Source: an uncultured Candidatus Saccharibacteria bacterium
GTDB taxonomy: Bacteria; Patescibacteriota; Saccharimonadia; Saccharimonadales; Saccharimonadaceae
NCBI GenBank assembly: GCA_946414345.1
Contig: CAMKOB010000006.1
Location: 1-44,356 of the forward strand
Direction of reading: 5' to 3'
Length of the DNA stretch: 44,356 nt
This document shows positions 1,965-41,583 of this stretch, piece by piece (the stretch's first letter is position 1; each line of letters opens with the position of its first letter). The translations under genes and the position numbers were made by a program. Below the pieces are notes generated by a model, which ran no database searches, had not been told where the DNA came from, and saw nothing but the letters and a program-made list of their open reading frames with translations.

Positions 1965-2384
1965 TTAAATTGCTCCTAAATCCTTTAATGCTTGTCTATA
2001 GACTGCAAGAGCAGTTGCGGCTTGACGATACGAAACTTCCAAATCACTTTCGTGCGCAATTGCATTGCGCAGTTTGTGTGCACGCCACACGGCATTAATG
2101 TCGCTAAATTTATCGCCAGTTTTTTTCAACCGTTCCCCCATCGTTTTGCCAGGCGCACCCATTTCTGACAGTGCTTTATCGAGCAACTTGTCGCCATTAA
2201 TAATAGACATCGACCAAGTTGATGGATTTTCTTTATTTAAACTATTCTCGATGCGCAAAAATTTAGTTTGGTATTCCTCAAGGTTGAATTTATGTGTGCG
2301 CCGCCCCGTTAGCTTAATTGCGAGGAATAAGAATATCGCCACAATCAAAACTGCAACGATAAAAATGACTGGTCCACCTTCCAT
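1965..2384 (-). CDS. Single-pass membrane protein with HEPN-like RNAIAH motif
   Basis: This is a 139-residue protein of unknown function between gatA and gatB. Residues 6-24 form one transmembrane helix, followed by GRR and a cytoplasmic, mostly helical domain. Near its end is HKLRNAIAHE (R106, N107, H111). This fits the R-[N/D/H]-x3-H signature of HEPN domains, many of which are metal-independent RNases, while others only bind RNA or protein. The start codon overlaps the gatA stop (TAATG), with AGGAG inside gatA, so translation is coupled to gatA. No nucleotidyltransferase or antitoxin partner is adjacent, so I do not call it a toxin. The HEPN assignment rests on this motif and the helical context only. 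Confidence 0.6.
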   Translation of the reverse strand: MEGGPVIFIVAVLIVAIFLFLAIKLTGRRTHKFNLEEYQTKFLRIENSLNKENPSTWSMSIINGDKLLDKALSEMGAPGKTMGERLKKTGDKFSDINAVWRAHKLRNAIAHESDLEVSYRQAATALAVYRQALKDLGAI

Positions 2385-3760: not shown

Positions 3761-3763
3761 AAA

Positions 3764-4051
3764 CTATAATACCTTTGGTACTTTTATTTGATTGTCAATC
3801 GTCTCGACCGTCAGATTAAGCAAGTCTTCGCAATTAGCGTCTTGTGGAAGTATTTCGTCGTTCCTCCAGACATTCTCCATTTCGAACACTTGATAAGTTG
3901 GCTCTACATCACTCGTGTCAAGCTCATCGAGCTGAGAAATATATTTGATAATATTCTCCAAATCGCCACCTAGTCGTTTAGCTTCATCGCTATTCAAGCG
4001 AAAATCCGACAAATCGGCCAAATGCTTTACCGTACTCTCATCTACTTTCAT
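3764..4051 (-). CDS. gatC: Asp/Glu-tRNA amidotransferase subunit C (GatC)
   Basis: GatC is the small clamp subunit that wraps around GatA and stabilises its contact with GatB. The 95-residue protein starts MKVDESTVKHLADLSDF and contains LENIIKYISQLDELDTSDVEP, typical of the family (written here as two adjoining halves, LENIIKYISQ and LDELDTSDVEP). A longer reading frame is open upstream to 4096, but the internal ATG at 4051 is preferred: it matches normal GatC length and lies 7 nt downstream of a TATAAT box. It is the first gene of the gat operon. Confidence 0.93.
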   Translation of the reverse strand: MKVDESTVKHLADLSDFRLNSDEAKRLGGDLENIIKYISQLDELDTSDVEPTYQVFEMENVWRNDEILPQDANCEDLLNLTVETIDNQIKVPKVL

Positions 4052-4058
4052 ATGATTT

Positions 4059-4064
4059 ATTATA
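4059..4064 (-). promoter_or_regulatory. Extended -10 box of the gat operon (leaderless)
   Basis: TGGTATAAT on the minus strand ends 7 nt before the gatC ATG. Transcription would therefore start at or next to the start codon. No convincing -35 at normal spacing is visible; TTGACG lies 22 nt upstream, too far. Confidence 0.6.
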
Positions 4065-4107
4065 CCACAATCAGAAAAATAATAAACGTCAAGCAAAATG
4101 TCAAAAA

Positions 4108-5748
4108 CTATTTGACATTCCTAAATAATAGTTTTCTAATAGCCTTAATTATCGGGTTAACTTCATCTAGATTTAAGAAATAACTCGCAATGACGTATGC
4201 CAACAACGATACCGCCGTAATCAACATAAATTTTGGTATTGTGATGACAAGTGAGGAGTCCGTTGCCATAAGTGGCACGAATTTAGCCATCGAAAATGCT
4301 ACGCACCCGGCCACCAATGTGGCTACTCCCATTTTGAGAACCGCTTTTAAAAAATCCTTATCTAGTAGTTTGCCATCAGAGCGTCGTTGCAGTATTAGAA
4401 GTAAGATTGCGATTTCAATCAAAGCTCCAATTGATTGGGCTAGGCCTAACCCATCTACTCCCCATCCTAATAAATACGCCGCAATGGATAGCAGAATTGT
4501 TAAACCAATTGCGATGATAGATACTCTAAACGGTGTTTTAGTGTCCTGGTAGGCGTAAAACCCACGCGACGCAATATGAAACACGCTTCTTGCAAAAATC
4601 GCAATACAAAGCATACCGAGAATAGACGCAATTGTACCGTTGCTATTATTATTGCCAATATTGGAAATAAAGCTAGTTACATAACCGCGTCCAAAAAAAG
4701 CAATGGTTGCGACTGGCGCCGCAATCCAAATGATCATCCTAAGAGCCTGTCTAAAAGTATTATAAAACTCTTTTTTGTCGCCGTTTCCAAGTTCTTCAGT
4801 TAGCTTTGGAAAGAATGCTGTAGAAATTGCTACGCCAATTAAACTCACCGGCATTGATTGTAGAGTTGTTGCCTGATCAAAAGAACGCACGGCCCCCGCC
4901 CCCATTCGTGAAGACAAGTTGGTTGAAACAATCGAATTTACATAGTCGATTCCCTGGTCAAGCGACCTTGGCGGTAACAGCTTTAAAATTGTGCGAAAAC
5001 CTTGGTTTTTCCAATTAATTTTGAACTCGTAGTCAAAACCAAGTCCAAATAATCCAATCAATGCTATCGCCAGCTGCATTACGGCACCCAAGATGACGCC
5101 AATTGCTACACCCATGATACCGCCCTCAAATAGTTGAATTCCAAACAGATTAATCCCACCAGTAAACCAAGTAATGCCGATAATAATGCCTATATTATAT
5201 ATAGCGGGTGCAAAAGCGTAAAACACAAATCGCCCCACGGCCTGCTGCATCGAAGTGAGTACGGTTGCGATTGAGAAAAGAAAAGGATTAATCGCAATTA
5301 CACGTGTCATGTTAATTGCTAGAATCATGCCGGACTCGTCCAAACCAGGTGAAACTACGTATCGGATTAATGGGTCGGCAAAAATCATAATAAGGATAGA
5401 TGCAGCCAAAGTAATTAAAGCAAGCAAATTAAGAAGCGATGATGACATTTCCCAGGCAGATTTTTTATTCCCCGTGATTAATCGTTGATTAAAAACTGGT
5501 ATAAATGATACGGCCAATGCACCAGACGTCAAGATAAAGAACATGAAATCCGGAATTGTAAATGCCGCCGTGTAGGCGTCGATACCAGTTGGATAAGTTC
5601 CTAAATAATACGAATTTAAAAGACGGTCGCGGAAGAGTCCGAGCAGGGCCGAAATAAGAGTGGAAGAGGCTAAAACAATTGCTGCTGATTTTACTGACAT
5701 CTTCATGTTTGCCATAGCCACAACCGACTTAAATCGAAACTTTTTCAT
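4108..5748 (-). CDS. murJ: Lipid II flippase MurJ
   Basis: MurJ is an integral membrane flippase of the MOP superfamily. It moves lipid-linked peptidoglycan precursor from the cytoplasmic to the outer leaflet. The 546-residue protein has about 14 hydrophobic segments after a short basic N-terminus. Family features include SALLGLFRDRLL in the first helix, the FIPVFNQRL loop, and RAFYA-like SRGFYAYQDTKTP in the second half. The C-terminus is short and cytoplasmic. It is divergent from the class A PBP gene, which polymerises the flipped substrate; the two share a palindromic promoter. The ATG lies 7 nt after a TATAAT box, predicting a leaderless mRNA. Confidence 0.93.
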   Translation of the reverse strand: MKKFRFKSVVAMANMKMSVKSAAIVLASSTLISALLGLFRDRLLNSYYLGTYPTGIDAYTAAFTIPDFMFFILTSGALAVSFIPVFNQRLITGNKKSAWEMSSSLLNLLALITLAASILIMIFADPLIRYVVSPGLDESGMILAINMTRVIAINPFLFSIATVLTSMQQAVGRFVFYAFAPAIYNIGIIIGITWFTGGINLFGIQLFEGGIMGVAIGVILGAVMQLAIALIGLFGLGFDYEFKINWKNQGFRTILKLLPPRSLDQGIDYVNSIVSTNLSSRMGAGAVRSFDQATTLQSMPVSLIGVAISTAFFPKLTEELGNGDKKEFYNTFRQALRMIIWIAAPVATIAFFGRGYVTSFISNIGNNNSNGTIASILGMLCIAIFARSVFHIASRGFYAYQDTKTPFRVSIIAIGLTILLSIAAYLLGWGVDGLGLAQSIGALIEIAILLLILQRRSDGKLLDKDFLKAVLKMGVATLVAGCVAFSMAKFVPLMATDSSLVITIPKFMLITAVSLLAYVIASYFLNLDEVNPIIKAIRKLLFRNVK

Positions 5749-5755
5749 AGTATTT

Positions 5756-5775
5756 ATTATATCACGTGATATAAT
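5756..5775. promoter_or_regulatory. Palindromic divergent promoter, murJ / PBP
   Basis: A perfect 20-bp palindrome with half-site ATTATATCAC sits in the 33-bp gap between the two starts. Its outer six bases on each side form a TATAAT -10 box, one per strand (5756-5761 for murJ, 5770-5775 for the PBP). The boxes end 7 nt and 6 nt before the two ATGs. The centre TCACGTGA could also be an operator. Neither side has an obvious -35. Confidence 0.7.
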
Positions 5776-5781
5776 GATTAT

Positions 5782-8721
5782 ATGGCAAAAAAAGCTGAAG
5801 TTATTTTACCGCCAAAGGATAAATCTAAGGCTACATTAAAAACTGCGCAAAAAACTGCTCCTAAAACTACGTCAAAGCCAAGGTCTATAAATGTAGCTCA
5901 AGACGAAGATATCAAAGAGGTGGTTGTTAAAATTAATAAGGAATCCGATCAAGAACAGCCAGTCAACGAGAGTGTTGATGTGGTCGCAATTGAAGATGAT
6001 AATGAGCAAACTAATCAGGAAGAAAGCGAGATGGCAAAATCTAAATCCAAAAAAATAAAGAGAGGTCTCTACAGCTCTTTCAAGTATAAACGCAAGGCTA
6101 AGAAAGAAGCTGAAGCGCGCCGCCGTGCTGAAGATCTCGCCACCTTGCCGAAAGAACCAATCAAAAGATTTTTTGCGAGGCTCCATCCGAAGCGCTTCTT
6201 TAGGTGGTGGTTTTCTTGGCGAGGTCAAAAAGCGATTCTCAAGGCTATTGGCATTTTCATTATTCTGTGCGCTATCGGTATTGGTGGCTTATTTCTCTAC
6301 TACAAAAAGGACCTTGATGAAATCCGTCTCGATGAAATGACCATCGCTGAAACCGTCAATACCTATTTAGACCGCAATGGTGTTGTTTTGTGGAAAGATA
6401 CAGGAAGTGACAATTACCGCCTAGTAGTTGATGCGGATGAGATTCCACAATATATGAAAGATGCCACCATTGCAATAGAAGACCGCAATTTTTACAACCA
6501 TATCGGCGTTGATCCAGTTGGCTTGGTGCGCGCTGTGATTTCCACGCTTAGTGGAAAGCAAGTGCAGGGTGGTTCTACCCTCACTCAGCAGTTAATTAAA
6601 CAAGTCTACTTTGCATCTGAAGCTCAAAGTGCAGACCGCGGTGGTCTACAGCGCAAAATTAAGGAATTAATTCTTGCTATTGAGCTTGAGCAGATGTATT
6701 CCAAAGATGAAATTCTTGCGATGTATCTCAATCAATCCCCATATGGCGGTCGTCGTAATGGTGTAGAGTCCGCTGCGCAGACCTATTTTGGCAAGTCGGC
6801 CAAAGATTTGACACTTGCCGAATGTGCATTGCTAGCTTCTATTCCGAATAACCCAGCTGTCTTTAATCCATATAATGAATATGGCCACGATCAACTAATT
6901 TGGCGCCAACAATATACGTTAGATGTCATGGCGGAAATGGGCAAAATTACACAAGAAGAAGCCGATGCGGCCAAAGCAATTGATATTCTTGCTACGATTC
7001 GGCCCGAGTCTAGCCAATACGCTAACGCTCTCGCACCACATTTTGTCCTAGAGGTGCGTTCACAACTTGAAGATAAATACGGTATATCTACTATGCGTGC
7101 TGGTGGCTGGACGATTACGACTACGCTAGATTATCGCGCTCAACAGATTGCCGAACAGGCCGTCGCTACCGGTATGGAATATAGCTACATGAATGGTACT
7201 GACAATATGGCTCTTGTATCGCTAGATGTGGAAACATCACAGGTCATTGCGATGGTTGGTTCGTCAAATTTCTTTAACGGTGATTATGGCGAGCTGAATG
7301 TTACCACAGACTCTCTCATCGAACCAGGCTCATCCATCAAGCCAATTTTAGACTATTCTGCCCTATTCACACAGCGTGAAGGTATCAACTATGGCCCAGG
7401 CTCTATATTGAGGGATGAAAACATCAACTCTATCTATTGTGCTGGCTATTCTGGTGCCTGTTCGCTTAATAACGCTTCGGGTCAAGGCTTCTACGGCGAT
7501 GTTACAATCCGTTTTTCGCTTGGCCACTCGCTTAATATCGCCGCGGTAAAAGCATTATATATTAACGGAATTGAGAATTCTCTCGAAGTTGCTCATAACT
7601 TAGGTGATAAGGCGTATTGCGCTAACCGCGATAATTATGGCCTCTCGATTGCAATCGGCTCTGGTTGCGGAGTTCGTATGGTTGAACACGCTAACGCCTA
7701 TGCTTCCCTTGCGCGTGGTGGTTCTTATAAGGATATTGCATATGTTCTAGAAGTTAAGAATTCAGCTGGCGACATAATCGAGTCTTGGGTCGATTCACCG
7801 GCCACACGCGTAGTTGATGAACAGGTTGCTTATATGGTGTCCAATATTCTTGGTGATCGTACTGCTCGCTATGATAACGGTGTAGGTTTTGTGGTTCCAG
7901 AAGTCTGGACTGCCACCAAGACCGGTACTACCACCACACAAAATGCAGCGGTCGTTAAGGATTCCTTGATTGAAAGTTTCTCGACTGCTATTTCCACCTT
8001 TGTCTGGAATGGTAATCATGACGGTTCAGGCTTTTCTGCCCCAATGGGTGAACCTGTTCGCTATGCTGTAGGCACATATATGGAGCGTGTCCACAAAGAA
8101 GTTTACGAACCGGATGGCAAGTGGCATTACGGCGATCAACCAATTCAACCAGCCGGCATCCAAACTCTTACGGTGAATGGCAAAACCGACATTTGGCCAA
8201 GCTGGTTTAACAAGGACAAAAACTCTGGCATTACCAAAGAGAGTTTAACATTTAATAAATATAACCATCTATTAGCTTCATCCTGTACTCCTCAAGCCTA
8301 TAAAGTCGAAATAGAAATAAGTAAAATTACTGATCCAATGACTGGCAAGGAGACTTACAATGTACCGGAGCCATATGATCGCGAAAATAGTGATACATGT
8401 GACTATGTTGCACCACAGGTTTCCTTATCTATTTTCTCACCAAACATCATTGTAACAATCAATAGGGGGACCAGCCCGATCGCCGGCGCCTCACTTTATG
8501 TGGATGGCACTGAAATTTCTAACGGTATTAAGGTCGACTCGGCCGGTAACGCCAATGTTTCATATAAAATAAATGGCACAGAATCTTCAATTAAGGTCCT
8601 TATTACTGATGAGGCCGGCTATACTGCCACCGCTGAAGAAACTCTTACCCCAACAAATCCTGGCAATTCTGGTAATTCAGGCAGTAACCCGGGCTACACC
8701 GACAAGCCAACTTCTCCGTAA
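5782..8721 (+). CDS. Class A penicillin-binding protein (transglycosylase/transpeptidase)
   Basis: This bifunctional peptidoglycan synthase polymerises glycan strands from lipid II and cross-links them. At 979 residues it is long for the family. A charged, Lys/Ala/Glu-rich cytoplasmic tail fills about residues 1-150, followed by one membrane anchor (152-173). The GT51 domain has EDRNFYNH (catalytic Glu233), GGSTLTQQLIKQ (263-274) and the KELILAIELEQ block. The transpeptidase has Ser517-x-x-Lys520 in PGSSIKP, SLN (583-585) and KTGTT (713-717), so it looks active. A predicted Ig-like beta module (about 877-956) and a Gly/Ser/Asn/Pro tail end the protein. It is divergent from murJ and leaderless. 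Confidence 0.95.
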   Translation: MAKKAEVILPPKDKSKATLKTAQKTAPKTTSKPRSINVAQDEDIKEVVVKINKESDQEQPVNESVDVVAIEDDNEQTNQEESEMAKSKSKKIKRGLYSSFKYKRKAKKEAEARRRAEDLATLPKEPIKRFFARLHPKRFFRWWFSWRGQKAILKAIGIFIILCAIGIGGLFLYYKKDLDEIRLDEMTIAETVNTYLDRNGVVLWKDTGSDNYRLVVDADEIPQYMKDATIAIEDRNFYNHIGVDPVGLVRAVISTLSGKQVQGGSTLTQQLIKQVYFASEAQSADRGGLQRKIKELILAIELEQMYSKDEILAMYLNQSPYGGRRNGVESAAQTYFGKSAKDLTLAECALLASIPNNPAVFNPYNEYGHDQLIWRQQYTLDVMAEMGKITQEEADAAKAIDILATIRPESSQYANALAPHFVLEVRSQLEDKYGISTMRAGGWTITTTLDYRAQQIAEQAVATGMEYSYMNGTDNMALVSLDVETSQVIAMVGSSNFFNGDYGELNVTTDSLIEPGSSIKPILDYSALFTQREGINYGPGSILRDENINSIYCAGYSGACSLNNASGQGFYGDVTIRFSLGHSLNIAAVKALYINGIENSLEVAHNLGDKAYCANRDNYGLSIAIGSGCGVRMVEHANAYASLARGGSYKDIAYVLEVKNSAGDIIESWVDSPATRVVDEQVAYMVSNILGDRTARYDNGVGFVVPEVWTATKTGTTTTQNAAVVKDSLIESFSTAISTFVWNGNHDGSGFSAPMGEPVRYAVGTYMERVHKEVYEPDGKWHYGDQPIQPAGIQTLTVNGKTDIWPSWFNKDKNSGITKESLTFNKYNHLLASSCTPQAYKVEIEISKITDPMTGKETYNVPEPYDRENSDTCDYVAPQVSLSIFSPNIIVTINRGTSPIAGASLYVDGTEISNGIKVDSAGNANVSYKINGTESSIKVLITDEAGYTATAEETLTPTNPGNSGNSGSNPGYTDKPTSP

Positions 8722-8746: not shown

Positions 8747-9442
8747 ATGGAATTATTTATATTGCTAATATGTCTCATAATTTTAACCGAGACGACAATG
8801 CTTTTGATTAAAAAATATAAGCCAACCTCAAGTAATAAACGTAAAATCTACATCGATACATCAGCGCTTATCGATGGGCGAATTATCAATATCGCAAGGA
8901 GTGGTTTTTTGGATGGTGACTTAATCATCCTAAAAAGCGTGCTACTAGAGCTTCAGCTTCTTGCCGATGGCAAAGACACCGAGAAACGTAGCCGAGCTCG
9001 TGCTGGCCTTTCTGCCGCCACCGAGCTAGAGCGCGTGATTAATGTTAATACCGAAATAGTCGACGATACCGGCGGCTTGCGAAAGGTTGACGAAGAATTA
9101 TTAAAATATGCTAAAGAAAACCGCGGCGCCATTCTAACAATGGACTATAATCTTATCAAAGTAGCCGAAGCTGAAAAAATCGAAACACTCAATATTAACG
9201 ATCTCGCGCTTGCCACGCGAAGTGAATTTGTGCCAGGTGAAAAAGTCAGACTTCGGATTCTTGACAAAGGCTCCAATAAAGGTCAAGGGGTTGGCCACCT
9301 TGATGATGGGACCATGGTGGTAGTTGATAATGCAGCCAATAAAATTGGCCACGAAGTTACAGTTGAGCTTATCAAATTTTATGAAACTCCTGCAGGCAAA
9401 ATGATTTTTGCCAAGCTTGCGTCAGGTCGACGAGACAATTAA
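8747..9442 (+). CDS. PIN-TRAM domain membrane protein (YacL-like, putative RNase)
   Basis: One N-terminal transmembrane segment (about residues 3-21) precedes a PIN domain, starting KIYIDTSALIDGRI with acidic residues D37 and D43 and a further acidic position near 69 (LLELQLLADG). A C-terminal TRAM RNA-binding domain begins at EFVPGEKVRLRIL and runs through GQGVGHLDDGTMVVV. PIN domains are Mg-dependent nucleases, and PIN-TRAM proteins of the YacL type are membrane-bound. Bacillus-type YacL has several membrane helices; this one has a single helix, so it is a minimal form. It has its own -10 box. Its last 21 bases overlap the convergent phosphoketolase C gene. The RNA target is unknown. Confidence 0.85.
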   Translation: MELFILLICLIILTETTMLLIKKYKPTSSNKRKIYIDTSALIDGRIINIARSGFLDGDLIILKSVLLELQLLADGKDTEKRSRARAGLSAATELERVINVNTEIVDDTGGLRKVDEELLKYAKENRGAILTMDYNLIKVAEAEKIETLNINDLALATRSEFVPGEKVRLRILDKGSNKGQGVGHLDDGTMVVVDNAANKIGHEVTVELIKFYETPAGKMIFAKLASGRRDN

Positions 9443-10573
9443 ATCCTCACCAAACTCAATTGCGTGAGTATGATTTTCGTTTAAGGTTTTTTTGTATTTA
9501 TCTACCAATTCATTAATTTTCAATGCTTTTGCAATATCGATTGCAAGATCAAATCTTGTTGAAGCGTTTTTTCTTAACATTTCAAATGGCGTTGTAGTGG
9601 AACCTTCTTCTGAAAATCCATGTACGCGGAGCCGCCATGAATCAGTATATTTTTCAAAAATAGTTTCGAGAGTCGCTGGATAACCATGAAAGCTGGCAAT
9701 AATTGGACAATTGATTGTAAATATTTCGTTAAATTGTTCGCGTGTCATCTTGTGCTCGGTTGTGCCGATTGCACGGTATGATAGAGAGTTAATAATAACA
9801 AGACGGAGTCTTAACCCAGGCAAATCTTTTTTCAGAATCTTTACCGCTTCCATTGCTTCACGTACCGCGATATCTCCTGCTGCTGCTAGAACAAAATCTG
9901 GCTTATCATCGGACAATGATTCATAAATAATTGCGCCTTCCCCATCAAATAAACTGCCAGCGGTCTGCTCGTCGAAGTAGACAGGCAGCTCATTCTTGTC
10001 AAATGTTGTAAAATTTACAACATCACGTGATGCGAGCATAAAATTAAATGCCGCTTCTGCCACTGCAGCGTCCGTTGGAAAAATACAATTTACTAAGTCA
10101 GACGGCACCGAAAGTAGCGTCGATATTAAGGCTGGCGATTGGTGTGTAAATCCATTGTGGTCTTGGCGCCAACAAACCGAAGTGGAAAGTAGGTTTACTG
10201 CCGGCAGACTTTTCCGCCATGGTACATTCTTAGATTGCTTGATGAATTTTATTTGCTGTAAGAGCTGTGATGCGACGATTGGGAAGAATGATTCGTAACT
10301 GCCCATCATAGCCTGCTCGCCATTGATCAAATGTCCCATCATTGTGGAAAACAATACGTTTTCAGAAAGCATCTCTACGATTCTTCCCTTTGGCGACTCT
10401 GGCAGATCCCATTTTTTAACCGGCAAATCCCATGCTCTGCTCTCTACGTCATACATCGCGGTGAACTTATTCGATGTGGTTTCATCCGGTGAAAAGAAAT
10501 AAAAGTGCGGATCGTTAATCATCTCTTGCTTTAATAGCTCGCCAATTCTCTTCGCGGACGATTCTTCTGTCAT
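9422..10573 (-). CDS. Phosphoketolase, C-terminal half as a separate protein
   Basis: These 383 residues match the C-terminal two thirds of xylulose-5-phosphate/fructose-6-phosphate phosphoketolase (pyrimidine-binding plus C-terminal domains). Landmarks are SPDETTSN (28-35), EMLSEN with the catalytic-type Glu71, WRQDHNGFTHQ (135-145, retaining both active-site His), FHGYP and EEGSTTTPFEM. It begins where single-chain enzymes reach FRVFGPDETASN, so the chain starts at a domain edge. The ATG overlaps the upstream stop by 4 nt (ATGA), and AAAGGGGAT (10581-10589) is a well-placed ribosome site. That argues for deliberate separate translation, not a sequencing frameshift. The cognate half is immediately upstream. 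The active site should lie at the interface of the two products. Confidence 0.9.
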   Translation of the reverse strand: MTEESSAKRIGELLKQEMINDPHFYFFSPDETTSNKFTAMYDVESRAWDLPVKKWDLPESPKGRIVEMLSENVLFSTMMGHLINGEQAMMGSYESFFPIVASQLLQQIKFIKQSKNVPWRKSLPAVNLLSTSVCWRQDHNGFTHQSPALISTLLSVPSDLVNCIFPTDAAVAEAAFNFMLASRDVVNFTTFDKNELPVYFDEQTAGSLFDGEGAIIYESLSDDKPDFVLAAAGDIAVREAMEAVKILKKDLPGLRLRLVIINSLSYRAIGTTEHKMTREQFNEIFTINCPIIASFHGYPATLETIFEKYTDSWRLRVHGFSEEGSTTTPFEMLRKNASTRFDLAIDIAKALKINELVDKYKKTLNENHTHAIEFGEDLIVSST

Positions 10574-11502
10574 ATCGTAAATCCCCTTTCCTTGTCAAAC
10601 AATTCTTCAAAATGATAAGAATGCAACCACTCACTCAGTCGCTGCAATTCCTCAGGTTTTTGAGCTGGCTCCTTGAGTGGTACTTGATGCGCATCCTGAT
10701 GTGCGTTTGGCCCACCTGCGCCCTTCTCGGTTTTTAAAATATAAAATGGTGATTCAACTTCTTGATTTAAAGCATATTGAAACGCTTCTGGTGCATCACC
10801 GTCAATTACTACTGGCGTGAAACCAAAACCTCGGATCATATCATTTAATTCTTTTTCGGACTTTCTAGCGTAAATAGTCGGGGCAGAGATTTTGTATCCA
10901 TTAAGATGCAGTATCGGTAAAACTACTCCATTTCCCTCGCCGCCCACCAAATTCTTTAGGTTCAAAGAACCGAGCGCAGTTGCTGTTTCTAATTCGCCAT
11001 CACCAATGAGTACTGCTAGAGTTTTTTCTGGATGTCCTAACGCCACGCCGTAAGCGGTTGCTAGTGCATAGCCAAGCTCTCCGCCTTCAGTAATTACTGT
11101 TGGGGTCATTGGGCTAGCATGTGATGGGAATCCATCTGGCCACGAAAAATTTCTACAGATATAAACTAGTCCTTCATAATCTAACGCTGCGCGTTTATCT
11201 ACCTCGTTCAGTTTACCATCTATAAATAAATTTGCCTGCAGAGCTGGAAATCCATGTCCAGGTCCTAAAACAAATGTGTAATTTGGGTCATCGCCGAAAT
11301 ACTCCTTCAAGTTTGCATAGGCAACGTTTATTCCGTGGCAAGTTCCCCAATGCCCAAGCAATCTTGCTTTGATATCCTCGGGTTTTAATGGCCTTTCTAG
11401 CAAAAAATTATCTCTTAAATATATTTGCGCCACAGAAAGATAATCACACGCTCTTACGCGTCGATTTATATAGTTAATCTCAGAAATGCCCACGCTAGAC
11501 AT
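10570..11502 (-). CDS. Phosphoketolase, N-terminal (TPP pyrophosphate-binding) half
   Basis: This 310-residue protein covers the thiamine-diphosphate pyrophosphate-binding domain. It shows LLGHWGTCHGIN (His51), GPGHG (His83), SHASPMTP (His128), EGGELGY, the cofactor motif GDGE (167-170) with LHLNGYKI downstream, and AHQVPL. Together with the next gene it would cleave xylulose-5-P (and perhaps fructose-6-P) with phosphate to acetyl-P plus an aldose phosphate. It ends EELFDKERGFTI, where the single-chain family runs into a linker of roughly 60 residues; that linker is absent from both products. The HEGGELG His common in the family is Thr here (ITEGGELG). Although the frame is open to 11667, the start at 11502 gives the usual N-terminus (RACDYLSVAQIYL) and is 6 nt from a TATAAT box. 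Confidence 0.9.
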   Translation of the reverse strand: MSSVGISEINYINRRVRACDYLSVAQIYLRDNFLLERPLKPEDIKARLLGHWGTCHGINVAYANLKEYFGDDPNYTFVLGPGHGFPALQANLFIDGKLNEVDKRAALDYEGLVYICRNFSWPDGFPSHASPMTPTVITEGGELGYALATAYGVALGHPEKTLAVLIGDGELETATALGSLNLKNLVGGEGNGVVLPILHLNGYKISAPTIYARKSEKELNDMIRGFGFTPVVIDGDAPEAFQYALNQEVESPFYILKTEKGAGGPNAHQDAHQVPLKEPAQKPEELQRLSEWLHSYHFEELFDKERGFTI

Positions 11503-11508
11503 AACCTT

Positions 11509-11514
11509 ATTATA
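11509..11514 (-). promoter_or_regulatory. -10 box of the split phosphoketolase operon (leaderless)
   Basis: TATAAT on the minus strand ends 6 nt before the ATG at 11502. It lies in the 57-bp divergent gap shared with the femX-like operon. Confidence 0.6.
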
Positions 11515-11544
11515 ACATAAGCGGCCACTGTTTGTCTTAAAATA

Positions 11545-11553
11545 TGCTACAAT
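11545..11553 (+). promoter_or_regulatory. Extended -10 box of the femX-like operon (leaderless)
   Basis: TGCTACAAT is an extended -10 whose hexamer ends 6 nt before the ATG at 11560. No -35 is seen at the normal distance. Confidence 0.6.
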
Positions 11554-11559
11554 AGTTAT

Positions 11560-12645
11560 ATGAAAAAAACATTTCGCGAAATTTCTTTTGATGAATTTGA
11601 AGAGTTTGTTGAAACCTGCCCAACAAAAAGCTACATGCAAAGTCCGCAAATGTTCAAACGCTACCAAAAAACCGGCCGAGAATGCTATCTTCTTGGCGTC
11701 TTCCTAGACGAAAAACTCGTCGTTGCCGGCATTGTAAGCAATATTTACGAACGGTATGGCCATAAAATCTTCACTTTTTCGCGCGGTCCACTTGCTAATT
11801 TTTCGAAATACGAAAAAGAGCTGTACTATTTTCTAGATGAAACTAAAAAGTATCTTAAACCAAAACACGGCATCGTGCTCCAAATATCACCAAGTTTATT
11901 AGTACCAAGTGCACCAAAAGATTTCGCTGCCAAATTAAAAACCCACGGCTTTAAATACCTTGGCGAATACGAGCAAGTCAAATGGACCTACGCGATTGAT
12001 TTTAGTAAAATCGAGAATCTCCCGCCGGTTGAGCCGCCTAAACAAAAGTCACCTACTCTTTCACCGGAAATTTCACCAGAATCCGAGCAGATACTAGCGC
12101 GTAGCTTCCGCCGTGATCATCGTTATACGATTAAATACGCCACCGAACGCTATGGCATTAAATTGAGAGAGCTCCAACCATCAGAATACGATATTCTACT
12201 CAAATTATTGGAAGAATCTGGCCGCCAACACGGTTTTGTCCCGCGCGACCAAAAATTCTTTGAGCAAATGTCAGATGCCTTCGGTTCCGAAGTCTCCGCA
12301 GTTGTCGCCGAATTACCAGATGGCACACCAATTGCTGCTGCCTTTTTCATTCTTTACGGCGACGAAGTAATTTATTTGTCCAGTGGGCTTTCACGCGAGC
12401 ATAAAAAACTTGGTGGGCCACACCTCATTCAGTCCGCCATGATCAAATATGCCTACGCCAACGGATTTAAAAAATACAACTTCTGGGGTACCAATCCAGA
12501 TCCAGAAAATGGCGTATATAAATTCAAGCAAGGCTTTCATGGCGAAGTGGAAGAATTTGTTGGCACTTTTGCGGCACCTATTTCCCCACTCGGCACCATC
12601 TACCTTAAAAAACTCCGCGCCGCCGAACACCGCGATTTGACGTAG
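11560..12645 (+). CDS. FemX/FemAB-type peptidoglycan aminoacyltransferase, copy 1
   Basis: The FemABX family transfers amino acids from aminoacyl-tRNA to the Lys side chain of lipid II, building the peptidoglycan interpeptide bridge. This 361-residue protein has the two GNAT-like halves. N-terminal: SYMQSPQMFKRYQKTGRE, then YLLGVFLDEKLVVAG. C-terminal: YNFWG-like KYNFWGTNPDPENGVYKFK, then GFHGEVEEFVGTF, the characteristic end block. There is a Pro-rich linker around residues 155-175. The long FemA coiled-coil arm is not obvious, so it is closer to FemX. It is the first gene of a pair and leaderless. The amino acid transferred cannot be read from sequence. Confidence 0.85.
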   Translation: MKKTFREISFDEFEEFVETCPTKSYMQSPQMFKRYQKTGRECYLLGVFLDEKLVVAGIVSNIYERYGHKIFTFSRGPLANFSKYEKELYYFLDETKKYLKPKHGIVLQISPSLLVPSAPKDFAAKLKTHGFKYLGEYEQVKWTYAIDFSKIENLPPVEPPKQKSPTLSPEISPESEQILARSFRRDHRYTIKYATERYGIKLRELQPSEYDILLKLLEESGRQHGFVPRDQKFFEQMSDAFGSEVSAVVAELPDGTPIAAAFFILYGDEVIYLSSGLSREHKKLGGPHLIQSAMIKYAYANGFKKYNFWGTNPDPENGVYKFKQGFHGEVEEFVGTFAAPISPLGTIYLKKLRAAEHRDLT

Positions 12646-12657
12646 AAAGGAATATAC

Positions 12658-13707
12658 ATGGAATTTACCACCCTTAATCCCAAAGAATTCACCAAATTTG
12701 AAAGAAGCCAGAAAACCGGTAATTTCTTTCAATCGGTTCCCCGCTCGGTGCTCCGTGAAAAAATGGGTTTTAACACCTATCTTGTTGGCGTAAAAGAAGA
12801 AAAAAAAGTTCTCGCCGCCGCTCTTATTATTGAACGCGACCACGAAGCTCTTTTACAACTTGGTCCAATAATGGATTATGACAATTCAAAACTTCTCGAT
12901 TTCTTCCTCGCCGAAATTATTAAATATGCTCGCGAACAGAAATTTATCAAGCTAGAAATCTTTCCGCCAATTGTTTATGCCACTCATCAAATGGATGGCG
13001 CGATTATCGATAAGCTAGACACCTCTAAATTGTTCGATGCCTTTAAAAAACATGGCTTTACTCACGAGGGCTTTACGACCGAAGTCGAAAACAAAGCTAA
13101 TCGCTGGATGTTTATCAAAGACCTCTCAGGCTTAAAAACTCTCCGCGATGCAGAACTCACGATGAACTCCAGCACCCGTAAAAAACTTCATAAGACCACC
13201 CGCGAACTAGATATTAAAGTCTTGAAAGATAAATCCGAACTACCAGAATGGCGCGAGGCTCTACTCGAAAGTAACAAGAGAAATGGTATACCTACTCGCG
13301 AAGTCAAATATTTTGAAGATTTGTGGGATGCGTTTGGTGACGAAGTGGTTTTTGTCGAAGCTCGGGTGAAAGAAACCGGCGAACTCGTGTCGAGCGAAGT
13401 AGACATTTTCCATCCCAACGAAATGGTGGCTTTTGTGGCTGGCACTATTGAGAAAAACAAGCATTATAATGGCTCTACCGCCATCAAAGGTTGGAATATC
13501 GAAGAATGCTTGCGTCGTAAACAAACCCGCATGAATCTCTATGGCATGAAAGGTGATTTTTCGCCCAGCAATCCCCTGCTCTTCTTCAAGAGTGGGCTCG
13601 GCGGAATTACCGAAGAATATGTTGGTGGTTTTTCGATGGTCTTAAATTCTAAAAAACTCCTCAAAAACAAAGTCAAAAGAAAAATCAAAAAACTAATCAA
13701 ACACTAA
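12658..13707 (+). CDS. FemX/FemAB-type peptidoglycan aminoacyltransferase, copy 2
   Basis: This 349-residue paralogue lies 12 nt downstream of copy 1, with AAAGGAA as the ribosome site. It opens with KTGNFFQSVPRSVLREKMG and ends with the family block MNLYGMKGDFSPSNPLLFFK, then GLGGITEEYVGGF, and a Lys-rich C-terminal tail that may bind tRNA or membrane. Sequential action on the same bridge is the usual reason for tandem Fem genes (inference). Its TAA stop overlaps the TAG stop of the convergent glycosyltransferase gene (shared CTAA). It is clearly diverged from copy 1, so it is not a recent duplicate. Confidence 0.85.
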   Translation: MEFTTLNPKEFTKFERSQKTGNFFQSVPRSVLREKMGFNTYLVGVKEEKKVLAAALIIERDHEALLQLGPIMDYDNSKLLDFFLAEIIKYAREQKFIKLEIFPPIVYATHQMDGAIIDKLDTSKLFDAFKKHGFTHEGFTTEVENKANRWMFIKDLSGLKTLRDAELTMNSSTRKKLHKTTRELDIKVLKDKSELPEWREALLESNKRNGIPTREVKYFEDLWDAFGDEVVFVEARVKETGELVSSEVDIFHPNEMVAFVAGTIEKNKHYNGSTAIKGWNIEECLRRKQTRMNLYGMKGDFSPSNPLLFFKSGLGGITEEYVGGFSMVLNSKKLLKNKVKRKIKKLIKH

Positions 13708-14636
13708 CTATAATAATTAATTATTATTTTTAATTTTGTTTTTAAATTGCAATTCTTGAAGAACTTATTATGGCGCCATTTCGGGAAGTACTTCTTCAAC
13801 ATCTCGCGCGAGCGCTTTAATCCATCGCGTCCTTCTGGAAATTTTTTGTAGTATTCTGCCGAATCCATCAATAAATTCCAAATAAAGAACCACTCTAGCT
13901 CGGCATGATATTCTTGTACTGCATCCATCTCATCAAAGCGCCGGTAAAGTCCCTCAAGCGTTGGAAAAATATCGAAATAATGAGAACTCCATTCCAGTTT
14001 ATGTAGTACCGAATCCGGATTTTGATAATACAAATATAACGGTTCGTCAACAGCTGAATATTTATCGGTGTATAGAATTAATGCCGGCATCATATCCATA
14101 TCCTCATGGATGACGCCTTCAATAAATTTGAATCCACATTTGACATACCACTTTCGGCGAATTAGTACCTGTACTGGGCCAAGTTCGCTCCGAATAAAAC
14201 GGCTTTTGAAATCTGGCTGTGTAGGCGAAAATGCCGGTATGTGGTCAACGTGTCCGTCTGGGAAGATTTTTTCCAATCCCACCATTACAAAATCTGCGTC
14301 AGTTTTCTTGGCTTCGGCCATCAGTTTAGCAACGGAATCTTCGCTTATAGTGTCATCGACATCGATGAACCAAAAATAATCACCTTTTGCTTTTGGAACA
14401 GCGAAGTTTCTAGCTGCGCCCGCGCCGGGCGTGGTGCATTTATAAGATCGAATTATTTTAGGGTGCTTCTTTGCCAATTTCTCCGCAATCGCCAATGAAT
14501 TGTCCGTTGAATTGTTATCAATTAGTAATACCTCACTGCTTCCCTCAAAGTTCTTTAATGCATTTAACACGGACGCCACGCAGCGGTCGATATATTTTTC
14601 TGCGTTAAAAATCGGTATAATGATTGAAATATCCAT
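13704..14636 (-). CDS. Family 2 glycosyltransferase
   Basis: A GT-A fold is indicated by SIIIPIFNAEKYIDRCVAS at the N-terminus, LLIDNNSTDNS (37-47) and the metal/nucleotide-binding DVDD (92-95). The 310-residue length and the later HEDMDMMP segment are common in capsule or surface-polysaccharide transferases. Donor and acceptor are not predictable. It follows uvrB with a TAATG stop/start overlap, so it is translationally coupled to a repair gene with no obvious functional link. Genes in this window are often joined this way. It converges on the femX-like pair, so envelope glycosylation is a reasonable guess. Confidence 0.9.
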   Translation of the reverse strand: MDISIIIPIFNAEKYIDRCVASVLNALKNFEGSSEVLLIDNNSTDNSLAIAEKLAKKHPKIIRSYKCTTPGAGAARNFAVPKAKGDYFWFIDVDDTISEDSVAKLMAEAKKTDADFVMVGLEKIFPDGHVDHIPAFSPTQPDFKSRFIRSELGPVQVLIRRKWYVKCGFKFIEGVIHEDMDMMPALILYTDKYSAVDEPLYLYYQNPDSVLHKLEWSSHYFDIFPTLEGLYRRFDEMDAVQEYHAELEWFFIWNLLMDSAEYYKKFPEGRDGLKRSREMLKKYFPKWRHNKFFKNCNLKTKLKIIINYYS

Positions 14637-16630
14637 TACTTTTCTCCAATATATTCTTTAATCTTGGCGACTTCATCGCGTAGTAAAGCTGCTTTTTCAA
14701 ATTCAAGATTGGCTGCGGCTAGTTGCATCTCTGACTGCAACGATTTGATTAATGTCGGCAACTCGTCTTTTGGAATTCGCTTAATATCAAGTTTGTTCTC
14801 AACCTGCTTTTCTGGAATAATTGCCCTTAACCCTAAAGATACCTCTTTTTTGATTGAAGTCGGTGTAATATTGTGCTCAGTATTGTATTGTTTTTGGATT
14901 TCACGTCGACGATTAGTTTCGGAAATCGCTTTCTCCATACTTTCGGTGATAAAGTTGGCATACATAATTACTTTACCTTCTACGTGCCTCGCTGCACGAC
15001 CAATTGTCTGTATTAAAGCTGATTCGCTACGTAAAAAACCTTCTTTGTCTGCATCAAGAATTGCTACCAGCGAAACCTCTGGCAAGTCTAACCCCTCACG
15101 CAGAAGATTAATCCCCACTAACACATCATAAACGCCCTCACGTAAATCTCGTAAGATATCACCACGCTCTAACGTATCAACATCGGAATGAATATATGCG
15201 GTCTTTACACCACGTTCTTTTAAATGGTCGGTCAAATCCTCTGCCATTCGTTTGGTAAGGGTTGTAATCAAAGTTCTCTGGCCCTTGGCAATGCGCTTGT
15301 CAATTTCTTCCATCAAATCGTCAATCTGCCCCTCGGAGCCACGTACTTCGATTTCTGGGTCAAGCAATCCAGTCGGGCGAATTACTTGCTCAGCTGGCTC
15401 CGGGGAATGCTCGAGCTCATATTCTCCAGGTGTTGCAGAGACATAGATCGCCTGATTAATACGCGCCTGAAATTCACCATAAGTCAGTGGTCTATTATCG
15501 AGTGCTGACGGTAGCCTAAAGCCATAGTCCACCAATGTCATCTTACGGGCATGATCGCCGTTGTACATTCCTCTGACCTGCGGTAAAGTCATATGCGACT
15601 CATCCACAATCAACAAGAAATCTTTTGGGAAGAAATCCAGTAGTGTTGCGGGTGGCTGTCCAGGCTTCCGCCCATCAAGGTGGCGTGAATAGTTTTCAAT
15701 TCCCTTTACAAAACCTGTGCTTTCAAGCATCTCCAAATCATATTTAGTGCGTTGAGACAACCTTTCTGCTTCAAGGTATTTTTCGTGACTCCGGAAATAG
15801 GCAATTCGCTCGTCAAATTCGGCGCGAATAGTTTTCAAAGCTCTTTCAAGTTGGTCTTTCGGTGTCGCGTAATGTGTATTCGGAAAGATATGAATATGAT
15901 CTGGCTTTTCTAAGACATCAAACGTCAGCGGGTCTACAATTTTTACCTCCTCCAATTTATCGAAACCAAACTCGAAGCGGTAACCATGCTCGCCATTTGC
16001 TGGATATAAATCCACCGTGTCGCCCATTACTCTAAAGTTCCCTCTTTCAAATGCCAAATCATTTCGATGATATTGCATATTGATAAGATAACGCATAAAA
16101 GAAATTTGGTCTAACTGCGCATCTGCTGTCCAGCCTTCCTTTTTCTTCCATAATGGTAGCGACATTGCTAAATAATACTCCGGTGCACCAATACCATAAA
16201 TACATGATACTGATGCAATAACTATAACATCGTTCCGTGTCAACAAAGCTTCAGTTGCTCCATGCCTCAACCTGTCGATTTCGTCATTAATAGCCGAATC
16301 CTTTTCAATGTAGGTATCTGTCGACGCAATATAGGCTTCCGGTTGATAATAATCGAAATACGACACGAAATAATGGACTTCATTCTCCGGGAAAAACTCC
16401 CGAAATTCTGAGTATAGCTGAGCAGCAAGGGTTTTATTGTGCGCTAGAATCAAAGTCGGTTTCTGTGTATTCTGTATAATATTAGCCATCGTAAAGGTCT
16501 TACCGGAACCGGTCACGCCCAACAATGTTTGTTCTTTTATGCCAGACAAAACACCATCCGTAAGCTGTTTGATAGCTCTCGGTTGGTCGCCAGTTGGCTG
16601 AAATTTTGACACCAATTTAAACTTTGCCAT
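14636..16630 (-). CDS. uvrB: UvrABC excinuclease subunit B (UvrB)
   Basis: UvrB is the damage-verification helicase of nucleotide excision repair. It is loaded by UvrA and recruits UvrC. The 664 residues include Walker A GVTGSGKT (38-45), the beta-hairpin region [20 protein letters not shown], the DEAD-like [10 protein letters not shown], helicase motifs V/VI ([23 protein letters not shown]) and the C-terminal UVR motif ([20 protein letters not shown]). The protein is complete. The gene has its own -10 box in the 35-bp gap after ung, and its stop overlaps the GT2 start. Confidence 0.98.
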
Positions 16631-16637
16631 ATCTACT

Positions 16638-16643
16638 ATTATA
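16638..16643 (-). promoter_or_regulatory. -10 box of uvrB (leaderless)
   Basis: TATAAT on the minus strand ends 7 nt before the uvrB ATG; a second TATAAT lies about 9 nt further upstream. Confidence 0.55.
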
Positions 16644-16665
16644 TCATTATAAGCTTTTTATGGCA

Positions 16666-17313
16666 TTACCACTCAATTGGACTCATATTATTCTTAACTA
16701 AAAACTCATTGCAACGTGAAAAATGATGATTTCCAAAAAAACCGGCATGTGCCGACAAAGGCGATGGATGCGGGGACTCCAAAATTAAATGCCGCGACGA
16801 GTCAATCAGAGATTTTTTATTTCGAGCATCTCTACCCCATAAAATGAATACCAAATGTGGTCGCACCTTGTTCAAATACTCAATGGTAGCCGTCGTGAAT
16901 ACCTCCCAACCTTTGCCACGATGCGAACCTGCTTTATGTGCCTCTACGGTCAAAACGGTATTAAGCAGCAAAACGCCCTGCCTTTGCCAATTTCGTAAGC
17001 TCCCAGCCGGATTGGTATGATGTCCAATATCATTATCTATTTCTTTATAAATATTAATAAGTGATGGCGGTACTGGCTGCGAATTAGGCACTGAAAAAGC
17101 CAAGCCTTCCGCTGCGCCAGGGGTATGATACGGGTCTTGTCCTAATATTACCACTTTTATATCATTCAAGTCGGTTGTGAATGCCGAGAATACAAGCCCT
17201 TTCGGCGGAAAGATGGTTTTATGTTCGTATTCATCGTGTAAAAAAGCCGACAATTCCTTGAAGTAGGGCTTTTCAAACTCTGTTTTTAAAAACTCCTTCC
17301 AACTCTCGTGCAT
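16666..17313 (-). CDS. ung: Uracil-DNA glycosylase (family 1)
   Basis: This enzyme removes uracil from DNA as the first step of base excision repair. The 215-residue protein contains the catalytic water-activating motif GQDPYH (58-63, Asp60), the uracil-binding LLLNTVLTV (115-123) and the DNA-intercalation loop HPSPLS (182-187). All are standard for family 1. It is upstream of uvrB on the same strand and divergent from tdk across a 14-bp gap with overlapping -10 boxes. It has no leader or Shine-Dalgarno sequence. Confidence 0.97.
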   Translation of the reverse strand: MHESWKEFLKTEFEKPYFKELSAFLHDEYEHKTIFPPKGLVFSAFTTDLNDIKVVILGQDPYHTPGAAEGLAFSVPNSQPVPPSLINIYKEIDNDIGHHTNPAGSLRNWQRQGVLLLNTVLTVEAHKAGSHRGKGWEVFTTATIEYLNKVRPHLVFILWGRDARNKKSLIDSSRHLILESPHPSPLSAHAGFFGNHHFSRCNEFLVKNNMSPIEW

Positions 17314-17315
17314 GA

Positions 17316-17325
17316 TATAATTATA
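17316..17325. promoter_or_regulatory. Overlapping divergent -10 boxes, ung / tdk
   Basis: The 10-bp palindrome TATAATTATA contains a plus-strand TATAAT (17316-17321) and a minus-strand TATAAT (17320-17325) that share two bases. Each ends exactly 6 nt before its start codon. The whole intergenic space is 14 bp (17314-17327). Confidence 0.7.
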
Positions 17326-17327
17326 GC

Positions 17328-17918
17328 ATGGCTAAACTGTATTTTCGCTACGGCGCAATGGGGTGTGGCAAAACGATGCAACTTTTACAAGTGGCATTTA
17401 ACTACGAGGAACGTGGTCACAAAGTTTGTGTCATTAAGCCTCGTACCGACACTAAAAATGGTACTAAGCTGTTAACCCGCATCGGTCCCGAACGCGAAAC
17501 TAACTTATGTTTTGATCAATCTACCGATATATATAAAGAGGTGTCCAAAAAATATAAAAAAGTACATTGTGTACTCGTTGATGAGGCGCAATTTTTGACT
17601 CCTGCACAAGCCGACCAACTTATGAAAATAACAATTGATTTGGATATACCAGTCATGGCTTATGGTCTTAGATTGAATTTCCGTCAACAAGATGGCGGAT
17701 TCGAAGGAGCTACTAGATTGCTTCAGATTGCCCACGATATTGAAGAAATCAAAACAATTTGTGAGTGTGGCCATAAAGCCACTCTAAATTGTCGTTTTTT
17801 GAATAATAAACTCATGACGGATGGCCCAGATATTTTAATTGACGATGGTAAATCAAAAATCGAATATCGTGCTCTCTGTCCTGCTTGCTACGAGAAATAT
17901 CTGAAAGGAGACAAATAA
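17328..17918 (+). CDS. tdk: Thymidine kinase (type II)
   Basis: This salvage enzyme phosphorylates thymidine to dTMP with ATP. The 196-residue protein has the P-loop GAMGCGKT (9-16), the catalytic DEAQF (85-89, Glu86) and the lasso zinc site with Cys145, Cys147, Cys184 and Cys187 (CEC...CPAC). This fits type II (TK1-like) enzymes. It is followed by tmk with a TAATG overlap, giving a two-step thymidine to dTDP route, as expected in an organism relying on host nucleosides. It is leaderless. Confidence 0.95.
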   Translation: MAKLYFRYGAMGCGKTMQLLQVAFNYEERGHKVCVIKPRTDTKNGTKLLTRIGPERETNLCFDQSTDIYKEVSKKYKKVHCVLVDEAQFLTPAQADQLMKITIDLDIPVMAYGLRLNFRQQDGGFEGATRLLQIAHDIEEIKTICECGHKATLNCRFLNNKLMTDGPDILIDDGKSKIEYRALCPACYEKYLKGDK

Positions 17919-18517
17919 TGTATATCGTTATAGAAGGTCAAGACGGTACCGGTAAGTCCACCCAAGCTCGATTATTAAAAGATTATTTCGAAAATCAGGG
18001 CAAAGAAGTAGTCGTGATGGATGAACCAGATGGTGATTTGCCACAAGCCCACGATATCCATGACATGATTCTGGTTCGTGGTTATAACCTTGAATCTCTA
18101 ACGAATGTTTTATTGTTTACTGCAGCACGTGTTGAATTATGGCGAAAGATTGCTGAGCCAGTATTGAAAAACGGCGGCGTTGTGATTTCTGCTCGAAATT
18201 ATTGGTCTACATTAGCTTATCAAGGTTATGGTGAAGGTGTTTCGAAAAGCAAAATTATTAAAATCACTCACGAGGCTTTACCAGACAAATATTGCCACCC
18301 GGACAAAGGATTTATCCTAATTGTTTCCGACAAAGTTCGATTAGAGCGCCAAGGCGGTCGCGGCAAAGCTAAAGAAACTTTCGAGGCCAAACCAGACGAT
18401 TTTCAGCAGCGTGTTAATGCTGCCTATCCAAAAATTGCTAAGGAATTCAACATCCCAATCATTGATGCATCCGGTACTATTGAGGAAGTTTTCAGTTTAA
18501 TTAAAGAAAAACTATAG
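17918..18517 (+). CDS. tmk: Thymidylate kinase
   Basis: This kinase phosphorylates dTMP to dTDP. Residues 7-14 form the P-loop (GQDGTGKS), MDEPDG is the substrate-base/DR-like loop, SARNYWSTLAYQGYG fits the TMP-binding region, and RLERQGGRGKAKE is the LID. At 199 residues it is slightly short. The frame is open a little upstream, but the ATG overlapping the tdk stop (TAATG) with AAAGGAG (17904-17910) inside tdk is the obvious start. It is translationally coupled to tdk. Confidence 0.93.
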   Translation: MYIVIEGQDGTGKSTQARLLKDYFENQGKEVVVMDEPDGDLPQAHDIHDMILVRGYNLESLTNVLLFTAARVELWRKIAEPVLKNGGVVISARNYWSTLAYQGYGEGVSKSKIIKITHEALPDKYCHPDKGFILIVSDKVRLERQGGRGKAKETFEAKPDDFQQRVNAAYPKIAKEFNIPIIDASGTIEEVFSLIKEKL

Positions 18518-40245: not shown

Positions 40246-41538
40246 ATGAAAAGGCCAAAACAAACACTTTTATCGAAAATTATTCTAAACAGTTTAATGA
40301 TGGCGGGACTAATAAATGCTGCGATTGGGCTAGTAGCGAATACGGCCTCCGCTCTGGAGTATACCTCGAGTCCAGTACCGGTCAGTTTTACCTACAGCGA
40401 CGTGTTAACGGTATCTACCGGTGGCGATGTCTTAATTCCGAACTTGGTCCCAGGCAATAGTACTATTAGTGCTAATAATTATGTAATCACGGTTAGTACG
40501 AATAGTGTAGCCGGATATACACTGTCTGCTTCCGTGGGCTGTGCTAGTGGTGATGGGTGCTTTAATTCTAAAACATTAGGTGATGGCAACAATAATAATT
40601 TTGCTATGGTGGAATCTACTACAGCCTTAACTCCGGGCAGATGGGGTGTTTCATTTGACGGTACGGCAACCACTAGCTCTGTTTTTCAAACCTTACCACT
40701 TTATTCTGATACAGCTGAAACCATTAACCAAACTACCAATGCTAGTGGTACCGCTGCTATCGGATATCATGGCACACAAGACACCACCTTTCGTATCGGT
40801 GCCTATGCCGACGAAAACCAAGTCGCCGGGACTTATACCAATTCAGTGAATTTTTATGCTGTGGCAAATATTGTAATTACGCCACTGGGCGAGTGTAGCT
40901 CCACGGAGTCTTGCATGCAGACCTTTACAGCCGACATGTGCGAAGCTCAAGCTTCAGACGCTCCTGTAACCCTCACCGATGCTCGTGATGGTAATACCTA
41001 CACCGTCCGCTACCTCCAAGGCGCTTGCTGGATGACGCAGAACCTAAGGCTAACCAATACGGTAAGCTCACAATATTCAAACTTTAGTACTAATTCCACC
41101 TTTAACCCGTGTGTGGGTGACTTAACCGCAGGCGGTTCTTACGATGAAGCAAGATGTCATGATTCGGGAAGTACTGAAACGGGTGTGTGGTACAACTACG
41201 TTTCAGCTTCGGCTGGCACCATCACAGGAAGAAGCAACTCTACAATTGCCACTGAGGATATCTGCCCAGCCGGATGGCACTTACCAAACTATGACACGAC
41301 TAAGCCAGCAGGTTCCGTTAATAGTCTACTAGATTTGCAGGATAAAGATTACTTCTCCCCAGTTACCGGCGGCTACTACTACGGCAGTAGTATCGACATT
41401 CCCGGCAGCGGTTATTGGTGGTCGTCTGTCGCCTACGGTAACATGGAACGCTACCACCTGTACTACAATGGTAGTAGCCTGGGTACCGTCAGCAGCCTCA
41501 GGAGCCTCGGGCTCTATATTCGCTGCGTCCGCCTCTAG
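40246..41538 (+). CDS. Secreted FSMPD-domain protein B
   Basis: A 430-residue exported protein. The signal peptide (basic start, hydrophobic 11-31, ANTASA end at 36) is followed by a Thr/Ser/Asn-rich beta domain (about 37-215, including VITVSTNSVAGYTLSASV). The FSMPD domain (about 220-430) has DARDGNTYTVRYLQGACWMT (245-264), EDICPAGWHLP (337-347), GYWWSS (389-394) and terminal YIRCVRL. It closely resembles protein A through the domain; the last 40 residues differ most, and their codons look unusual (see the entry at 41413). It forms a same-strand pair with gene C. Function unknown; surface recognition is the natural guess. Confidence 0.85.
   Translation: MKRPKQTLLSKIILNSLMMAGLINAAIGLVANTASALEYTSSPVPVSFTYSDVLTVSTGGDVLIPNLVPGNSTISANNYVITVSTNSVAGYTLSASVGCASGDGCFNSKTLGDGNNNNFAMVESTTALTPGRWGVSFDGTATTSSVFQTLPLYSDTAETINQTTNASGTAAIGYHGTQDTTFRIGAYADENQVAGTYTNSVNFYAVANIVITPLGECSSTESCMQTFTADMCEAQASDAPVTLTDARDGNTYTVRYLQGACWMTQNLRLTNTVSSQYSNFSTNSTFNPCVGDLTAGGSYDEARCHDSGSTETGVWYNYVSASAGTITGRSNSTIATEDICPAGWHLPNYDTTKPAGSVNSLLDLQDKDYFSPVTGGYYYGSSIDIPGSGYWWSSVAYGNMERYHLYYNGSSLGTVSSLRSLGLYIRCVRL
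41413..41535 (+). other. Candidate hypervariable 3' region of FSMPD gene B
   Basis: This stretch runs from GYWWSS to the terminal IRCVRL. In codons 414-423, eight of ten are NNC (ACC, GTC, AGC, AGC, CTC, AGC, CTC, CTC) and two are NGG. This is the pattern left when adenines in AAC-type codons of a diversity-generating-retroelement template are randomised. The flanks match gene A. No reverse transcriptase gene is present in the window, and no template repeat was noticed by eye. Confidence 0.4.
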
Positions 41539-41583
41539 TTTTACTCTATCTAGAAATTAAAGCCAGAGATATCCAAAACACTA

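Follow-up and report, generated by a model that had tools for sequence, protein, structure and literature searches.

What the 3' end of gene B records, and where its author is now, are the questions raised by this locus. Gene B (40246-41538, plus strand) lies in a window of 44,356 nucleotides, the whole stretch of Candidatus Saccharibacteria DNA analysed here, and encodes a FISUMP-domain protein of 430 aa. The initial annotation proposed that the gene ends in something like the variable region (VR) of a diversity-generating retroelement (DGR), which might sit at some other place in the genome and diversify the tail. The protein scores above the curated cut-offs of both PF09603 (35.0 bits, cut-off 33.9) and TIGR02145 (46.3 bits, cut-off 41.65), while its paralogue, gene A, falls slightly under both. 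The part of the domain matched by Pfam (41023-41289, plus strand; aa 260-348) lies 5' of the VR. The N-terminus carries a hydrophobic stretch that by inspection resembles a signal peptide; the product is probably exported, and a role in surface binding or adhesion is likely for this host-dependent Saccharibacterium. On the question of a C-type-lectin fold, a relative's target matches Lcl_C besides the FISUMP assignment of gene B; the AlphaFold model of the gene B FISUMP domain has a pLDDT of 41.5 and is unusable, and a PDB sequence search with the domain profile gave no credible match.

The nearest complete DGR is found on a FISUMP gene of another uncultured Ca. Saccharibacteria (locus L109, CAMVFY010000001.1). 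Its target gene (2056-3624) is followed by an accessory ORF (3710-4570), a reverse transcriptase (RT) gene (4567-5703) and an inverted template (TR; 5705-5922), and its own VR differs from the TR at 21 of the 180 bases compared, every one a template A. This target is homologous to gene B in both its FISUMP core and its tail, and rewriting has affected the same Asn codons of the template in each. Next to the L109 target, however, stand an accessory gene, an RT, a TR and a hairpin, all of which gene B lacks. In the same genome as L109, lepA (EF-4) is split (L117; contig C1 of G376/G393, 8875-17976) into parts of 181 aa (8875-9420) and 408 aa (16750-17976). The two parts are separated by about 7.3 kb in which FISUMP genes are accompanied by a complete DGR, making lepA the DGR site of that genome; the segment behaves like an insertion.

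The comparison of gene B with the L109 template is decisive. The two align without gaps over 180 bases, from 41349 to 41528 on the plus strand (L109:5740-5919, minus strand), with 82% identity, and 27 of the 33 mismatches fall at template A. Measured against this relative's TR rather than an own-genome template, mismatches occur at 27/57 A and 6/123 non-A positions (Fisher p=4.7e-11), the latter made up of 3/51 C, 2/36 G and 1/36 T. The variable region proper, from the first to the last changed template A, spans 41374-41513 (plus strand). Nineteen of the 20 template Asn codons (AAC or AAT) are rewritten in gene B, and the third base is retained at 19 of the 20. The VR occupies the 3' end of the gene and is followed by a constant anchor of 15 bases identical to the template (41514-41528, plus strand; CTATATTCGCTGCGT), the expected position of a DGR homing signal (IMH), and by the stop codon at 41536-41538. 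The alignment strongly supports the tail as a genuine DGR variable region, as the initial annotation had proposed. That annotation placed it correctly in the 3' tail, but its start at 41413 misses several variable codons.

The codon signature that first drew attention to the tail is real, though it proves little. Codons 414-423 read ACC GTC AGC AGC CTC AGG AGC CTC GGG CTC, eight of ten being NNC, where the L109 template has ACC AAC AAC AAC AAC AGG AAC AAC GGG AAC. Against an NNC background of 26% in codons 1-375, eight in ten has a binomial P of 6e-4 for a single window. Nine ten-codon windows of gene B reach eight NNC, three of them (starting at codons 250-252) distant from the tail, and NNC richness was rejected as proof of a DGR because other stretches of the gene are equally rich. 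The motifs GYWWSS and YIRCVRL do enclose both this stretch and the tail of gene A, as described, but the parallel between the two ends there. Compared with the L109 template, the tail of gene A differs at 9/25 A and 20/55 non-A positions (p=1), and gene A was rejected as a second VR. The tail of the C3 paralogue is likewise without A bias (p=0.4).

These paralogues bring in the explanation that requires no retroelement, in which a tolerant, variable ligand-binding loop of the FISUMP domain diverged by ordinary protein evolution. FISUMP paralogues generally differ at this place, gene A and the C3 paralogues vary there without A bias, and template Asn codons may themselves mark tolerant loops and so produce some A bias at low identity. 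Two controls exclude such a loop as the source of the pattern in gene B. One is the lack of A bias, against the same template, in the tails of gene A and the C3 paralogue. The other is the upstream stretch (40915-41346), where gene B and L109 diverge about evenly at the four bases (21/121, 22/106, 23/104 and 21/101) and show the usual codon pattern, with 24, 15 and 48 mismatches at first, second and third positions (144 each). In the VR this pattern is inverted, with mismatches of 16, 14 and 2 among 47, 47 and 46 positions; third bases are changed at 2/46 and first and second bases together at 30/94. Selection on a loop would not protect synonymous third positions. Furthermore, divergence at non-A sites falls from 66/311 upstream to 5/87 in the VR (p=4e-4), leaving these sites less diverged than their flank. 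Ordinary evolution is already contradicted by the codon-position inversion, and we regard it as very improbable.

Other FISUMP tails of this genome were also compared with 15 genus templates, in 45 comparisons. Among these, the tail at G000:C18:6119-7483 (L011/L014) differs at 32/47 A and 30/104 non-A positions (p=6.5e-6), and that at G000:C1:62302-63657 (L002/L013) has an A bias with p of about 0.001. Both are 59-68% identical to genus templates. They are possibly older VRs, a suggestion from the alignments that we do not press to a claim.

Where, then, is the DGR that wrote the tail? The assembly of this genome, 98.76% complete, holds 861,140 bases on 29 contigs. Neither the Pfam RVT_1 profile nor, at E<=10, a profile of 17 genus DGR RTs detected an RT in it; the latter profile matches the RTs of relatives at E<1e-140. 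A profile of the genus accessory ORF, run without a positive control, found nothing. The L109 TR matches the tail of gene B only, and a DNA search for a second copy of the gene B VR found none. No hairpin with a stem of at least 8 bases occurs within about 160 bases 3' of the VR. RT, TR, accessory protein and hairpin, the components by which a complete DGR would be recognised, are thus all missing from this assembly, and the near-identical repeat beside an RT gene anticipated by the initial annotation is not there. Its idea of a retroelement elsewhere in the genome finds no support in the 98.8%-complete assembly, which lacks RT, accessory gene and TR alike. It had also named, as arguments against a DGR, absence of an RT and template together with a lack of excess variation at these codons; the first holds for the assembly, while the second fails because variation between species is concentrated at template-A codons. 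The lepA gene of this genome (contig C23) is a single intact frame of 618 codons, which is an empty site and not by itself a loss.

The genus as a whole is rich in these elements. RT profile matches occur in 85 of 147 genus genomes, and a DGR RT is present in 56 of the 95 of good quality. VR/TR-type repeat pairs were found in 17 of 20 fetched RT loci, with mismatches nearly all at template A; in 14 pooled pairs, template A is changed to G 160 times, to T 125 times and to C 31 times, and only 21 mismatches remain. In the usual layout, the target gene ends in a VR, which is followed by an accessory ORF of about 275-340 aa, the RT and an inverted TR. Target tails resemble that of gene B, ending in ..SVRCVA or ..YVRCVRS. 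The RTs carry the motifs GIVIGNxTSQ (or xSSQ) and YVDD, the SQ form being a hallmark of DGRs, and the best PDB match of their profile is 8ub7, which we take to be the Bordetella phage DGR RT. Perfect G+C-rich hairpins with stems of 9-13 bases stand a few tens of bases after the VR in L109 (3659-3683), L087, L088, L089 and L104. They are similar to the cruciforms known to aid DGR homing.

The ORF between target and RT is conserved at L089 (1000-1905), at L109 (3710-4570) and at 12 further loci. It has no match in NCBIfam or PHROGs at E<=0.01, and elsewhere only one marginal PADLOC match and one weak Pfam match. A single-sequence model of the protein is helical in its C-terminal half, and a fold search with the model returned nothing at E<=0.001. 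The S23-family chain 2rld appeared at E of about 1, a match too weak to call the protein Avd-like. Avd is the usual DGR accessory protein, which this ORF may replace or contain. In a further genome, G099, a single frame of 2777 aa (contig C3, 64911-72359) holds about a dozen tandem FISUMP domains; a search of that genome with RVT_1 gave no RT.

DGRs of this genus need not lie next to their targets. In G077, which is 99% complete, a remote VR on contig C7 (L052) fits a TR on contig C10 (L089), with mismatches at 30/56 A and 3/121 non-A positions, and one DGR can therefore serve FISUMP genes in trans. A second VR gene in the genome of L109, on another contig (L131), differs at 28/66 A and 10/147 non-A positions; with so many non-A mismatches, this VR is no longer kept identical to the present template. 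Remote VRs such as these leave two readings for gene B: it is either a leftover or the distant target of a DGR missed by the assembly. In the second case, an active RT, accessory gene and TR would have fallen into a gap of the assembly or onto a contig left out of the bin, and would diversify gene B in trans. The frequency of DGR RTs in good genus genomes and the G077 pair speak for such an arrangement, and the VR non-A sites, less diverged from the L109 template than the flank is, fit recent overwriting. Yet all three components are missing without so much as a partial match in the assembly, the hairpin after gene B is absent, and a related genome is also devoid of RT and TR. We consider an active DGR in trans unlikely.

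That related genome, RGIG7166, comes from the abomasum of a water buffalo (loci L107 and L108). It is 98% complete in about 10 contigs, and profile and DNA searches found neither RT nor TR. At L107 it carries a locus syntenic with that of gene B, in the order, with names assigned by inspection, RseP-like protease, UppS-like, RRF-like, two FISUMP genes, EF-Ts and S2. The two loci align up to 41286 and again from 41573, with about 82-84% identity in the flanks, but the segment between (41287-41572, plus strand), which takes in the spacer as well as the last part of gene B, does not align. In one of the two lineages the tail appears to have been exchanged or replaced. RGIG7166 does have a VR tail, at a different locus (L108), with mismatches at 29/57 A and 5/123 non-A positions (p=6e-13). 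No hairpin follows it. The missing alignment at L107 and the presence at L108 of a VR without a core point to exchange or replacement of tails among FISUMP genes, and gene B's genome and RGIG7166 together give two related, near-complete genomes that retain VR tails without a DGR core.

Such exchange invites the explanation that gene B acquired its tail alone, by recombination with a DGR target elsewhere, at another locus or in another strain or species, so that a DGR of its own need never have acted and the core may possibly never have been present in the lineage. The loss of alignment to the syntenic gene fits this, as does the closer similarity of the gene B core just 5' of the VR to L131 (84% over 347 bases) than of gene B to L107 (79% over 1041 bases). 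On the other hand, alignments of gene B to L109, L108 and L131 pass from core into VR with no clear junction, L107 could equally be the gene in which the exchange took place, and no donor with an identical VR came to light. That the tail was acquired by itself strikes us as quite unlikely.

We prefer to see the VR of gene B as an orphaned, probably frozen leftover of a DGR, a reading to which we give a probability of roughly 0.7. A DGR would have written the last 47 or so codons of the gene. As known DGR biology suggests, error-prone reverse transcription of a template RNA would have changed its As, and the resulting cDNA would have overwritten the target gene at its 3' end and created a new binding surface. 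The core of RT, accessory gene and TR would since have disappeared from the lineage, leaving a VR that is presumably frozen at present and evolves by ordinary mutation. Our preference for a leftover stems from the joint absence of RT, accessory gene and TR and from the agreement of RGIG7166; the intact lepA and the absence of a hairpin after gene B favour it further. Against it stand an assembly in 29 contigs and the poor assembly of DGR loci, which contain repeats and population variants.

The elements of this picture have precedents. Strains of Treponema denticola that lack RT and TR keep remnant DGR targets, and in one such relict VR 19 of the 21 mutations fall at template A (PMC4891356). 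The likeness to gene B lies in VR target genes kept in genomes without a core, but the phylum and target family differ, and strains of one species could be compared there. Cyanobacteria have remote variable proteins, and a paralogue, all3226, that shows remnant TR-VR homology but has no RT in its vicinity (PMC7517822). These VRs, too, are distant from any RT, with variable genes dispersed within genomes, but a DGR is known in that genome set, whereas in gene B's genome no RT or TR was found at all. DGR targets of the human microbiome include Fib_succ_major (nine proteins listed) and DUF1566 proteins (PMC4159848); the former share the target domain family of gene B, but in the metagenomes from which they come DGR systems accompany them, and they are not RT-less leftovers. 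Lastly, DGR clade 2 is restricted to Patescibacteria/CPR, bacteria in which cellular DGRs are common as in this genus, and the survey that describes it states that remote targets would escape detection (PMC8144416). Each of the three elements, FISUMP proteins as targets, DGRs in Patescibacteria and remnant targets without an RT, has thus been published already; our literature search found no paper pairing FISUMP with DGRs, or FISUMP with Saccharibacteria.

Gene B demonstrates that a DGR product can be recognised with neither RT nor template in its genome, by means of a test on codon positions together with the template of a relative. Such products escape surveys that begin from the RT. The result connects the abundant FISUMP surface proteins of these Saccharibacteria with targeted hypermutation and hence with variable binding, for which host cells or phages are plausible partners, and it makes gene B a testable case for the fate of DGR targets once the retroelement is gone. 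More tentatively, and with more doubt than confidence, the FISUMP paralogues of the genus might be a growing library of frozen DGR products, in which a movable core writes VR tails that recombination spreads among paralogues and loci and that are kept after the core is lost. If so, species without an RT would rely on binding surfaces made by a retroelement that they no longer own.
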